DNA from: Polyangiaceae bacterium
Lineage (GTDB): Bacteria > Myxococcota_A > Polyangia > Polyangiales > Polyangiaceae
Direction: 5' to 3'
DNA: 64,000 nucleotides
NCBI GenBank assembly: GCA_016933275.1
Contig: JAFGBI010000303.1
Coordinates: 1-64,000 of the forward strand
The stretch's first letter is position 1, and the number at the start of each line of letters is the position of its first letter. The position numbers and the translations under genes are program-made. Below, one piece after another: positions 5,039 through 54,089 of the stretch. The notes beneath the pieces were generated by a model. It had not been told where the DNA came from, did no database searches, and saw only the letters and a program-made list of their open reading frames with translations.

Positions 5039-5522
5039 CTTCGCAGGTGCCCCGGTTGGGAGAAGACCGAAAACTCCACGGTACCCCGAATCGCTCCCGC
5101 GTGAACCATCCCTCGTGTCGCTCGGGTCTTGGTTCCCCAGCAGAAGGGTGCTACTCGACGGGCCGAATGGGAGCCCTGGAGCACCGATCAGGCTGCCAAC
5201 GGAAGCGGCGCCGCTCAAAATGCACCCCAATTCGACCCTGGATCTGCCCACTCGGCGCTGCCGAGCGGGCCCCGACACCCGGTGCCCTTGACGTGGGTCC
5301 TGTGCAGAGCAAGGGACCCGCGGCGTCCCGGCCCCACGCCGCTTCACCGCATGGGGTGCGTTTCCAGCGCCACCCTGGGCGAGGCTTGCTGCCCGTTCGG
5401 TGCCCGACGCCCTCACCCACCCCACGGATGCTGGGTGGGACCCGGAGGACGCGGGTCCCTAGGTTGTTGATTTTTCGCAGCAATCAACCCGATTGCTGCA
5501 TTGGCCCCAAGAGGAACATGCC
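5039..5522. other. Gene-free gap with palindromic element copy X
   Basis: 484 bases between the divergent Ser/Thr kinase and small helical protein genes. The right three-quarters is filled by an inverted-repeat element (copy X, see repeat entry). The left part (5039-5170) should hold the kinase promoter, but I see no convincing -35/-10 pair. ORFs on both strands here are arginine- and proline-rich shadows without family resemblance. Confidence 0.6.
5176..5499. repeat. Palindromic dispersed element, copy X (long form)
   Basis: Shares blocks in the same order with copy Y at 16991-17144: GGAGCACCGATCAGG, GCCAAC, a GGCG-rich arm, GCGTTTCCA, CTGCCNGTTCGGTGC, then TAGGT(T/C)GTTGATTT followed by a hairpin with perfect 9-base arms (GCAGCAATC at 5477-5485, GATTGCTGC at 5491-5499). 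Copy X is about twice as long because of extra GC-rich sequence in the middle (an inner GCACCCC/GGGGTGC pair is visible) and an extra segment (about 5406-5460) before TAGG. The terminal hairpin sits 23 bases before the ATG of the next gene. Confidence 0.75.
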
Positions 5523-5966: not shown

Positions 5967-6567
5967 GGTCCCCACTGGTCTTTCTGCCAGGCCAGAATTG
6001 TACAGTATTCCAATCGGTTTTGTGTAATAATCCGCCAGGGTGGGCGTACCTTCTGCGCCGAGGTGGTCCGAGCCGCTGAAGAGACGGCCTCGCCCGCTCC
6101 TGCCTCGCTTCGATCCCACGGCCTTGCTGCTCGGTGGGGACTCAGGTCGGCTGGGGCCGAGCGTGACCAACTCGATGTCGGATCGGGTGGTGCTGGCTGG
6201 ATCAGCAATCGATGGCGGCCCGCTCGGCCACCGCCCAACCACCAAAGAGGGGGTCGTCTCACGACGATCCTGACCCGGCGGAGCCGAAACCAAACAGGCC
6301 GTCCGCGGTCAGCGGTCCGCTGTCAGGTGAAACCCGGAGACCCCGATCGCTGACGCCCGATTGCTGATGGCCGCGAGAACATTGAAAAAAATTCTGCCGG
6401 ATCCGGTCAAGACAACACCGCCAAGGGACGAGCCACCCTGCCCCTAGCTCGCTCGTGAGCAGCGAGCAGGTTCGACCGATCTCGGGGGCCCGCCCTGGCT
6501 CGACGCACCTGCGCTGACCGGTTTCTGCGGGACACGTGGGCCTTCCTGCGCTATCACCCCGCGCACC
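5967..6567. other. Gene-free gap with AT-rich patch and repeat copy A
   Basis: 601 bases. Just after the stop codon lies a GU-containing hairpin (CTGGTC...GGCCAG, about 5973-5994), then a conspicuous AT-rich patch (about 5995-6033, AATTGTACAGTATTCC and GTGTAATAATCC) in otherwise very GC-rich DNA, which could be a promoter or binding site. Repeat copy A fills 6283-6438. A small 7-base hairpin, GCTCGCT/AGCGAGC, follows near 6448. ORFs across the gap look like shadows. Confidence 0.5.
6283..6438. repeat. Dispersed ~150-bp repeat, copy A
   Basis: Shows the same series of blocks as copies B and C at 52.8-53.1 kb: GCCGAAACCAA at the left, a (G)GCCGTC..GGTCAGCG block, GATTGCTGA, CGAGAACATTGA, then the best-conserved box TCTGCCGGATCCGGTCAAGA and CGCCAAGGGAC at the right. 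In copy A a run of seven A's interrupts the region just before the box. No coding potential is evident. Confidence 0.7.
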
Positions 6568-16990: not shown

Positions 16991-17144
16991 CTAGAGCACC
17001 GATCAGGTTGCCAACAGCAACGGCGGCGCTGGAAACGCGTCCGTGCGAGGCGAGGACGCGTTTCCAACGCTGCCTCTGGAGAGGTCTGCTGCCGGTTCGG
17101 TGCTCTAGGTCGTTGATTTGACGCAGCAATCACCTGATTGCTGC
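16991..17144. repeat. Palindromic dispersed element, copy Y (compact form)
   Basis: Outer arms CTAGAGCACCGA (16991-17002) and TCGGTGCTCTAG (17097-17108) are a perfect 12-base inverted repeat. An inner perfect 12-base pair, GGAAACGCGTCC (17031-17042) with GGACGCGTTTCC (17054-17065), is nested inside and extends further with one mismatch. Fifteen bases after the outer arm is a separate hairpin with perfect 10-base arms and a CC loop (GCAGCAATCA / TGATTGCTGC, 17123-17144). The same order of blocks is found in copy X at 5.2-5.5 kb. Confidence 0.85.
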
Positions 17145-17484
17145 TCTAGTGAATGAGCCCAAGCAGGTTCGTCGGTCCGCCGGCCACTTTTTGGCCCGCA
17201 CCCTCGAATCTTCGGCTCCCGGGCTTGCCCCACCCCATCCCATCGTGCTAGGTGGTGGCGCGTAACTGAAACGTCGCTCCCGCGGGGGGAGCGTCCCGGG
17301 CGCCAGCGCCGGATTTCTACGATATCCCAGCTGTCTGCCGATTGTGCTTGGCTCGGAGTGGCCTCGTTTGGATCGCCGCCTGCCGCGGCCCGAGCGTGGC
17401 TCCTGTGCTCAAGCAAACTCCCGGGATAATTCCCCGCTGGATGGCAGCGATGCGGTCCTCGCGATCGCCCAATAGCCTCCTGCC

Positions 17485-51332: not shown

Positions 51333-52163
51333 ATGGCCCGCATGTTCGGTCTGATCGGTAACCGCCCCGACCTAGCCACCAGGGTGCTCCAAGCACACGC
51401 GGCCGTGCTCCATTGCCAATGCCCACCGGGCAGATCCGTCGGGTGGGGCGTCGGGTTCTACCAGAACGGGGAGGTTCTGCTCAGGCGCCGCCCCAGCGAC
51501 GATCGCCCGCTCATCGATCTGACCGAGTCCGGGATCGAGATGCGAACCGACGCGGTGATTGGCCATGTCCGAGAGGCGTGCGTGGGCGCACTCCGAACGG
51601 AAAACACGCAGCCCTTTCGGTACCGTTCGTGGCTCTTCGCCCAGCGCGGTACCGTCCATGGGTTCGACCGATTGGGGCCACGCCTGCTCGACAACGTCGC
51701 GACCTTCCTGCGACCAAATGTGCGGGGGGACACGGACGCCGAACTGGTCTGCTATGTCTTCCTGTCGTTCCTCCACGACGCCAACGAGCTCGACGCGCCG
51801 CGCACCGAACACCCGCACGTAGTGGAGGCACTCCGCGCTTCGATCGCGCTGGTGGACCGACTGTCGGCCGAGGAGGGGTACCCTGAGAACGACCTCGATC
51901 TGCTGGTCAGCAACGGGGAGAGCATCTATGCGGTCCACGGCGCCGGTGGGATGGGGTATCGGGAGCTCGCGGGACGTCGGGATGCCGAAGCACTCCTGCT
52001 GAACGGGGACCAGCTCGGAGCCCGGATCCCTGGTATCGAGCAGACCCGGTACACCCTGATCGCCTCGCCGGTCCCTCCTGCAACGCCAGAATGGACAAGG
52101 CTGCCGTCCCGGGTGATCTTCACGGCAGCCCGTGAAGCCCCACCAACGGTCGAGCCACTCTAA
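51333..52163 (+). CDS. Class II glutamine amidotransferase-like protein without the catalytic Cys
   Basis: 276 aa of the Ntn-hydrolase GATase-2 fold (YafJ/EgtC-like): SVGWGVGFYQNGEVLL, IGHVREACVGALRTENTQPF and WLFAQRGTVHGF align with the family's GWGIGFY, AHVRxAS.G and FAHNGTI. The nucleophile, which must be Cys2 after removal of Met, is Ala2 (MARMFGLIG), and the oxyanion Asn of HNG is Arg in QRG. Glutamine hydrolysis is thus unlikely. Next to a lipoprotein gene with a 32-base overlap. Function unknown. Confidence 0.82.
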   Translation: MARMFGLIGNRPDLATRVLQAHAAVLHCQCPPGRSVGWGVGFYQNGEVLLRRRPSDDRPLIDLTESGIEMRTDAVIGHVREACVGALRTENTQPFRYRSWLFAQRGTVHGFDRLGPRLLDNVATFLRPNVRGDTDAELVCYVFLSFLHDANELDAPRTEHPHVVEALRASIALVDRLSAEEGYPENDLDLLVSNGESIYAVHGAGGMGYRELAGRRDAEALLLNGDQLGARIPGIEQTRYTLIASPVPPATPEWTRLPSRVIFTAAREAPPTVEPL

Positions 52164-52818
52164 CCCACACCGCCGGACGGAAGTACGGAGGTGGATCCTC
52201 GCAAGCTCGGGAGCCGCTGCGCTCCTCGGGTGTGCGCCGGGAAGGTCCCCTTTCCCAACGACCACCTCCCTCGACGATGCGCCCCGCGCGCCGGCAGGGG
52301 TGGTTGCCAGACCCACGGTCGCCTTGCCATCCGCCAGCGCTTGGGCCGCGACGTCCGCAGGGATCGTCACGCTTCGAGCGCCATCCGACGGCCTTCTCAC
52401 CCGCGCGGTAGTAGACCAGTTCTTCGAGGCGCTCGTGACGGAGAACGCGAGTGCTCTCGCGCAGCTGCTGGCCCCGGACGTCCGCCTGCTGGACGCTCGG
52501 CGCGGCGCCGAGGTGAATGCACTCTCGTTCTGGCAGGCCCGAATGGCCCAGCTCGACTACGGTCTTCTGAAGGACCGAGTCGTTTTTCGCCCGACCGAAA
52601 TCACGGTCTACCGGGGGGGGGCCGCGGTCGAGGTGGGAGCGAAGCGAGCGAGCCTCTCCTTCGAGGTGCCGGAAGGCACCGTCCTGGTCGAGGTCCCCAT
52701 CGTGAGCAGCCGAGTGGGGGCCGTGGACCTCTTGGGCGAAAAACTGTGGTTTGTTTTGAAGCCGGACCCAAACGGGTACAGGATCGCCGGGTTGGTGGAG
52801 AACTCGACCTCACCCTAG
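52132..52818 (+). CDS. Lipoprotein with SnoaL/NTF2-like domain
   Basis: 228 aa, GTG start within the end of the previous gene (coupled). A basic start and lipobox (SSGAAALLGCAPG). The C-terminal half (VVDQFFEALVTENASALAQL; LGEKLWFVLKPDPNGYRIAG) has the look of a SnoaL/NTF2-like cone fold, usually a small-ligand binding or scaffold domain. The assignment is by eye and moderate. Confidence 0.65.
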   Translation: MKPHQRSSHSNPHRRTEVRRWILASSGAAALLGCAPGRSPFPTTTSLDDAPRAPAGVVARPTVALPSASAWAATSAGIVTLRAPSDGLLTRAVVDQFFEALVTENASALAQLLAPDVRLLDARRGAEVNALSFWQARMAQLDYGLLKDRVVFRPTEITVYRGGAAVEVGAKRASLSFEVPEGTVLVEVPIVSSRVGAVDLLGEKLWFVLKPDPNGYRIAGLVENSTSP

Positions 52819-52825
52819 ACCGGCG

Positions 52826-52974
52826 GGGCCTATACCGGACAGGCCGTCAGCGATCAGCCGTAGGGTAGAACGGGGGATCCCTGATCGTTCGCGCCTGATT
52901 GCTGACCGCCACGAGGACATTGAGAAATCTCCTGCCAGATTCGGTCGAGATCCGGTCGCCAAGGGGCCACCCCG
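52826..52974. repeat. Dispersed ~150-bp repeat, copy B
   Basis: Blocks GGCCGTCAGCG, GATTGCTGA, CGAGGACATTGAGAAA, CCTGCCAGATTCGGTCGAGA and CGCCAAGGGGCCACCC in the order of copies A and C. Tandem with copy C. Confidence 0.75.
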
Positions 52975-52977
52975 GAT

Positions 52978-53130
52978 GAGCCGAAACCAACCCGGCCATC
53001 GGCCGTCAGCGTTCGGTTGTGAGGCAAGAGGCGGAGAAGCTGGCTGTTTTCGGCTGATGGTTGACTGAAACGAAGACCCCGAGAAATTCTCTGCCAGATT
53101 CGGTCAAGACCGCGCCGCCAAGAGACTAGG
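52978..53130. repeat. Dispersed ~150-bp repeat, copy C
   Basis: Begins GAGCCGAAACCAA as copy A does, then GGCCGTCAGCG, GCTGATGG, CGAGAAATTC, TCTGCCAGATTCGGTCAAGA and CGCCAAGAGAC. It ends at the ribosome-site region of the following gene. Confidence 0.78.
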
Positions 53131-53132
53131 CA

Positions 53133-54089
53133 ATGACCTTCGCTCCCCCCTCCCATTGCCCCAATTGCGGCACCCCCGTGTTGCAGGGTACCTCGCGGTG
53201 CCCGAGGTGTGGCGGGCCGTTGATCACGGTGACGCCGCGGTGGGCCTCCAGCGGTCCTCCACCGGCTGCGCCCTCCACCCCCCCTGGCGGGCGGCCGCCG
53301 AACGCCGACCTAGGCAGCCCTCCGATCGGACCCGGTGGTACCCCCGTTGCGGGCTACGAGGTGAGTCAACGACCCCGGTCCGACCGGGTCCCCTTTCGCC
53401 CAATCGAGCCACCCAGGCGCCCTCGGCTTCCCGTTCCCCTGGTCGTGGCGGGTGCCGCGCTGTCGGCGGTTGCCATCATCGGGCTCGCATGGATCGCCTA
53501 TCCTCGCGCCGCCGGCAGCGCGATCGATGGGGCGCAGCCGGGGGCCGCCACGAGCGGCGATCCCGATGGGCTCGAGGGTGGGCTTCGAGGAGCGAAGCGC
53601 TCAGAAGGCCCAGGCCAGGGACCGTCCGTGGAAGCGACCGATCTGCTTGCGCGAGCAAAGACCTTGGGAGGCGAGTGGAACCGCGACGCGGTGCTCGTCT
53701 CCCTCCGGGCCGATCCCATCGTCGCGGGACGAGTGCCCGTCGAGAAGGGGGGGACCGTAGAATTCGTCTTCGCCATCCCCGCTGGGAAGCTCGGTCCAGG
53801 AGCTCGAGTCGGCAAGGATCGCTTCACGGTCACCTTCACCGGTACGGAGCCGACGACACGAATCTCGGCCGATGCGGCGTTGGGTCGAGGGGTGGCCGAT
53901 CCGGCCTGCACAGGCAACGACGCGTGGCGCGCGGCGGTCGCTTCGGGCGTCCCATCCAACGCGCGAACGACGCTGACCTACACCAACAGTGAGAAGCATG
54001 AGCGCGCCGTGTGGCGCGCGGAGTCCGCGGAGGATCCCAAGCTCAACCGCACCATCGACGGGCAGCGCTGCACCATCCTGACACGGTGA
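53133..54089 (+). CDS. Zinc-ribbon membrane protein, function unknown
   Basis: 318 aa. N-terminal zinc ribbon (HCPNCGTPVLQGTSRCPRCG), a Pro/Gly-rich linker, one span (VPLVVAGAALSAVAIIGLAW) and an exported C-terminal domain of about 180 residues with no recognised family. The layout (cytosolic ribbon, disordered linker, span, periplasmic domain) is common in myxobacterial signalling-like proteins. ATG 53133; no clear ribosome site. Confidence 0.8.
   Translation: MTFAPPSHCPNCGTPVLQGTSRCPRCGGPLITVTPRWASSGPPPAAPSTPPGGRPPNADLGSPPIGPGGTPVAGYEVSQRPRSDRVPFRPIEPPRRPRLPVPLVVAGAALSAVAIIGLAWIAYPRAAGSAIDGAQPGAATSGDPDGLEGGLRGAKRSEGPGQGPSVEATDLLARAKTLGGEWNRDAVLVSLRADPIVAGRVPVEKGGTVEFVFAIPAGKLGPGARVGKDRFTVTFTGTEPTTRISADAALGRGVADPACTGNDAWRAAVASGVPSNARTTLTYTNSEKHERAVWRAESAEDPKLNRTIDGQRCTILTR

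Follow-up and report, generated by a model that had tools for sequence, protein, structure and literature searches.

BIMEs, REPINs and other mosaic repeats form modular arrays whose units join at short shared motifs, and the REP/BIME sequences of E. coli bind gyrase or IHF. Among the REP families, GTAG REPs are intergenic, favour convergent and unidirectional gaps between genes, and have termini that often give a TAG stop codon to the flanking open reading frames (PMC3733652, 2013). A preference for particular short motifs is also found in IS5, whose target is CTAG/PyTAPu and is duplicated on insertion (PMC5493358). Here we describe a repeat family, termed family B, which is probably a lineage-specific, non-coding, non-autonomous miniature mobile element of REP/MITE-like character, inserted at CTAR-type tetranucleotides.

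Family B in the window, the genome and related genera

The window, the whole stretch of 64,000 nucleotides that was analysed, belongs to a draft assembly (G000; 8.25 Mb in 464 contigs), in which copy counts are lower bounds. A preliminary description had reported three copies of a repeat in the window, two of them in tandem, and these are real, aligning end to end with a pairwise identity of 64-72%. The box TCTGCCRGATYCGGTCRAGA, which had been noted in all three, occurs three times in the window compared to 0.08 times expected from dinucleotide-preserving shuffles. The limits first given were off by up to ~10 bp and have been improved as follows, with a CYRR-like tetranucleotide after each copy and both subfamilies of the family represented:

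6271-6429, + strand: B copy 1, stand-alone, CATTGA / GATCCGGTC subfamily (nhmmer 130.5 bits; CM match, E 5.8e-32)
6299-6374, + strand: long hairpin region of copy 1, with a 5' heptad arm and an imperfect 3' complement (predicted fold, approximate limits)
52815-52818, no strand: left CTAG tetranucleotide, with the TAG at which the upstream gene stops (sequence; ORF 52132-52818)
52816-52967, + strand: B copy 2, first in the tandem pair (nhmmer 116 bits; CM match)
52842-52910, + strand: long hairpin of copy 2, with heptad-type arms (predicted fold, approximate limits)
52968-53126, + strand: B copy 3, second in the tandem pair, CCCCGAG / GATTCGGTC / GAGAC subfamily (nhmmer 120.8 bits; CM match)
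53126-53129, no strand: right CTAG tetranucleotide (sequence; ORF 53133-54089)

The tandem pair (52816-53126) makes up the entire gap from the gene ending at 52818 to the gene starting at 53133, and copy 2 opens with the three bases, TAG, that serve the upstream gene (52132-52818) as stop codon. Excising the DNA between the two CTAGs would give CTAG, with its stop codon, followed by GCA and ATG (GCA-ATG at 53130-53135), and the locus minus the pair would be a compact operon junction.

These three copies are the local share of a dispersed family. A sequence-only model (R1) built from 43 copies gives at least 154 matches genome-wide (150 candidates scored), a profile HMM marks ~180 B stretches in the retrieved DNA of the genome, and the 16-base box with at most one mismatch has 125 genome-wide matches vs. 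none for the reversed control. The unit is ~155 bp long (range ~145-200 bp) and non-coding. Its consensus begins with CC-YRRS-CCGGCGGAGCCGGAACCAAACAGGCC and a 5' arm of (TCAGCGG)n units, followed by the loop TAGAACGTGGAGAC, the 3' arm CCTGATCGCTGACGCCTGATTGCTGATGGCC and finally ACGAGAACATTGAGAAATNTTCTGCCAGATCCGGTCAAGATCACACCGCCAAGGGA-CYRR. The arms are predicted to pair into a long hairpin, to which folding predictions for many copies add a second, small hairpin and outer stems that are weak. Spacing within the unit does vary, as the preliminary description had it, but what varies is mainly the number of whole 7-bp TCAGCGG units in one hairpin arm, with lengths falling into the classes 17/24/31/38 and 19/26/33. 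These 7-bp steps break any reading frame and speak against a coding role. The non-coding character first proposed is also borne out by gene calls from our own simple 3-periodic model (starts rough, stops exact), as 150 of the 152 copies with a 5' end are clear of every predicted gene. One copy (L186:2999-3150) lies within a long predicted ORF, of which 662 bp precede the element and 2274 bp follow it; in-frame read-through of this copy is possible.

The distribution of B is patchy and lineage-bound. The exact pattern has no match in other GTDB r220 genomes or among IMG/VR viral contigs, and when 38 relatives were searched initially (24 belonging to the same family), the outcome was a single weak partial match, which is a heptad hairpin with flanks unlike those of B. 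A search of 145 genomes including G000 yielded full-length diverged homologues in a single further genus, G065, which has at least 13 of them (best E 2.8e-22); the remaining 143 relatives gave no match. A chromosome-organising or DNA-binding site kept by the host would suit the many copies, their place between genes and the conserved boxes; however, confinement to two genera, division into two diverged subfamilies with many decayed copies, and nesting within another repeat family make this reading very improbable.

The heptad array without the rest of B is found in a few other genera. Arrays of the form (TCAGCNN)n occur in other genera of the family (G016:C229:4173-4309; G023:C9 and C15), and an array in G024 forms a hairpin without B flanks. 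In the assembly G000 itself, long perfect (TCAGCGG)n arrays of at least 9 units are present at contig ends (C9:1-86, C10:1-86, C90:1-86 and C44:217-290). The heptad arm of B can thus expand, and the assembly seems to break at B copies.

Element edges, stop codons and the hairpin

The left edges of B are CYRR (TAA, CAA, TGA, TAG) and the right edges are CYRR as well, mostly CTAG, and the units of tandem B-B arrays share one CYRR/CTAR-like motif between them. Neighbouring genes are convergent around 43 copies, divergent around 26 and in the same direction around 50; gaps that hold B are convergent in 46 of 124 cases vs. 39 of 239 among gaps of at least 30 bp without B. No strand or orientation bias of the element relative to its neighbours was seen across the 152 copies. 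The position of the edges relative to stop codons is exact to the base. Among sense upstream genes, 12 of 75 stop at exactly -3 of the B 5' edge, with only 4 others within 30 bp, and at this spike the stop codon of the gene is the YRR of the left edge. Similarly, 11 of 77 antisense downstream genes end at exactly -1 of the 3' edge (3 others within 30 bp), and here the antisense stop codon is the CTA of the right edge. The probability that random intergenic insertion gives such spikes is ~1e-14 or less. Smaller stop-codon spikes are present at the outer edges of a composite of B and a second repeat (39 and 113 bp). In G065, a simple ORF scan places the end of a long ORF right at a B edge, or a few bases from it at most, for about half of the 13 copies.

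Truncation of genes by inserted B copies was considered as a cause of the spikes and is rejected as unlikely, since it should also produce genes that run on into B and end there in the two remaining frames, of which none was seen, and since the flush genes have native C-termini. The latter is judged from sequence for the genes tested: Pfam domains reach the last residues in flush genes for a 5'-nucleotidase, DsrE, LolA, PqqD and TonB_C, and 15 relatives of the 5'-nucleotidase at L088 end 1-17 aa past the same conserved stretch.

The flush left edges carry TGA six times, TAG five times and TAA once, which is like host stop codon use, whereas CAA and TAA dominate the left edges of the other copies. 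This agreement with host use, and the contrast to the remaining copies, point to the left motif being the target, at least at flush edges. The left motif may also be partly owned by the element rather than the target, because CCAA and CTAA variants are common to nested and stand-alone copies. CTAR sites are rare, with 561 in 0.8 Mb, of which 315 are outside genes or at stops (54 at stop codons, 261 intergenic). Stop codons thus represent ~17% of the CTAR sites outside genes, near the share of B copies with flush edges (23/152), whereas CYRR sites in general would predict less than 2% at stop codons.

The exact position at stop codons and the enrichment in convergent gaps could also be explained if B were a host-maintained RNA, acting just after stop codons as a structured 3'-UTR, a bidirectional terminator or an mRNA stabilizer, and the long GC-rich hairpin with two further stems predicted in many copies would suit such a role. 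The lack of strand bias speaks against it, and so does the behaviour of the hairpin. The preliminary description had read the shared blocks as conserved RNA structure or protein binding; a real dispersed non-coding family with a possible long hairpin stands, but conservation as RNA structure is not supported. Among 21 length-matched copies there is 1 compensatory change vs. 1.2 expected from shuffles, so covariation does not exceed that of shuffles, and although 92% of cells pair in these copies, shuffles pair likewise. Two variable hairpin pairs within the genome show no association (p = 0.36), and adding G065 yields one pair changed from C-G to T-A with an overall p of 0.19. When arms are swapped between copies, the duplex is slightly weaker in two length classes (z ~-2.2) but not in others. 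Folding of the three copies in the window is at best slightly more stable than that of shuffles (z of -1.5, +0.4, and -1.3), Rfam has no match to B at the gathering cut-off or at E<=1, and RNAalifold gave a poor consensus on the first alignment due to the heptad arm. Additionally, B is nearly absent from other genera, and its tandem and nested copies resemble insertion debris. Maintenance by the host as RNA is consequently unlikely. The hairpin is real in form with no evidence of being kept as RNA, B is probably not a regulatory RNA family, and the shared blocks are better accounted for by a mobile element that spread through copying than by selection on RNA.

Proposed target site, companion repeat and possible mobilizing enzyme

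Because the two sides of stand-alone copies are uncorrelated at any offset, B shows no target-site duplication: none was detected in 54-64 stand-alone copies with all offsets tested, and their left and right tetramers are alike no more than by chance (p = 0.89). By inspection, B has no clear terminal inverted repeats, with the edges CCYRRS-CCGGCGG and GGCGG..TCCC sharing only the short block GGCGG.

Approximately 40 copies of B are nested in a companion repeat, MITE-1, at its internal CTAG. MITE-1, made up of modules A and C, measures 152 bp excluding its CTAG-like flanks. Its terminal inverted repeats (CTAGAGCASCRATCAGGTTG) are imperfect, and the flanking tetramers are CTAG-rich, with left and right sides that match weakly (p = 0.005). 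It is present on 95 loci of the same genome within the retrieved DNA, and in the window at:

5176-5499, - strand: MITE-1, partial copy
16991-17149, - strand: MITE-1 copy, 97%

Three other genera have MITE-1 as well, represented by G009 (with 90 A hairpins), G041 and G042, and its hairpin shows paired changes between genera (AGCAGC..GCTGC to AGCGGC..GCCGC). An exact MITE-1 21-mer is present in the deltaproteobacterial MAG SZUA-265 (L266, QJWJ01000538.1), which is the same sequence as relative G009, and this makes a deltaproteobacterial host likelier than a planctomycete one. A further module, with the sequence CTAGGGACCCGCGTCC, follows the MITE-1 hairpin, joined at the same CTAG motif, in the window (~5452-5500) and at L207:1404 and L116:770; it may be one more palindromic element belonging to this modular system.

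No transposase with B ends was found in the draft of 464 contigs when PF01797, PF13546, and PF01609 were searched. For a RAYT parent, PF01797 gives one unrelated IS200-like Y1 gene without B ends (L051:1469-1924), which is the sole Y1_Tnp gene in the assembly and has no B or MITE-1 ends nearby. For an IS701-type parent, PF13546 has no match in the assembly, and of the three genes with PF01609 (DDE_Tnp_1), sought for an IS4/IS5-type parent, none has B ends.

It is possible, if doubtful, that B derives as a MITE from an IS5-like DDE transposon with a YTAR/CTAG target, its 4-bp duplications and terminal repeats having decayed. The CTAG/CTAR edges, the tandem pair in the window bounded by CTAG on both sides, and the nesting of B at the CTAG of MITE-1, with its weakly matching CTAG-rich flanks, agree with this, as does the PyTAPu duplication of IS5, which is mostly CTAG (PMC5493358). 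However, the tetramers on the two sides of stand-alone B copies are unmatched, there is no terminal inverted repeat past the shared GGCGG, and no DDE gene with matching ends was found.

Since no close strain showed an empty site, we infer the movement of B itself from the features of its copies. In the favored reading of B as a REP/MITE-like mobile element, a trans-acting enzyme would insert it beside CTAR-like tetranucleotides (CTAG, CTAA, CTGA). Such motifs are scarce in this GC-rich genome, with more than half of them intergenic or at stop codons. The right edge of B carries the same motif, so that genes on both sides would retain their stop codons, making insertions harmless. What this enzyme would recognize is probably the hairpin, in single-stranded or cruciform form. 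A Y1 enzyme (IS200/RAYT-like) would fit the absent duplication, while a DDE enzyme of IS5 type would fit the CTAG preference and could be at work despite the missing duplication. More speculatively, the insertion machinery may read CTAR tetranucleotides and the edge of B may repeat the motif, such that insertion takes place at stop codons and restores them, whichever strand they are on, with no target duplication; this would amount to a self-made safe-harbour strategy with a transposase not yet described.

Comparison with described repeat families

Family B shows, to single-base detail, how a repeat family can fill intergenic space without harm to genes; the exact match between its edges and native stop codons has been measured in one genus and recurs, more roughly, in a second. 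Compared with IS5-type bacterial MITEs, B is alike in being non-coding and miniature, with CTAG-type edges and nesting with MITE-1, but unlike them it lacks both target duplication and terminal inverted repeats long enough to be useful. Of the features that define MITEs, B has no coding capacity, a high copy number and miniature size. BIMEs and REPINs resemble B in their modular arrays joined at short shared motifs, however, unit sequence, size and joining motif (CTAR in B) differ, and B is without inverted REP pairs.

GTAG REPs are the best-known parallel to B. Both are dispersed, intergenic, high-copy and hairpin-forming, lie between convergent genes, are often grouped, and have stop-supplying termini. 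GTAG REPs are stem-loops of 20-40 bp, whereas B measures ~155 bp and has a hairpin array of 7-bp units; the REP tag is 5'-GTAG, while that of B is CYRR/CTAR, which is YTAG (CTAG/TTAG) on the reverse strand; and GTAG REPs are usually accompanied by a RAYT transposase, with none found for B. B works like a REP but falls outside the REP definition on size, tag and RAYT. In REPs, the distribution over intergenic and convergent gaps has been read as RNA function, and B provides a testable argument that target-site choice may instead cause such a distribution.
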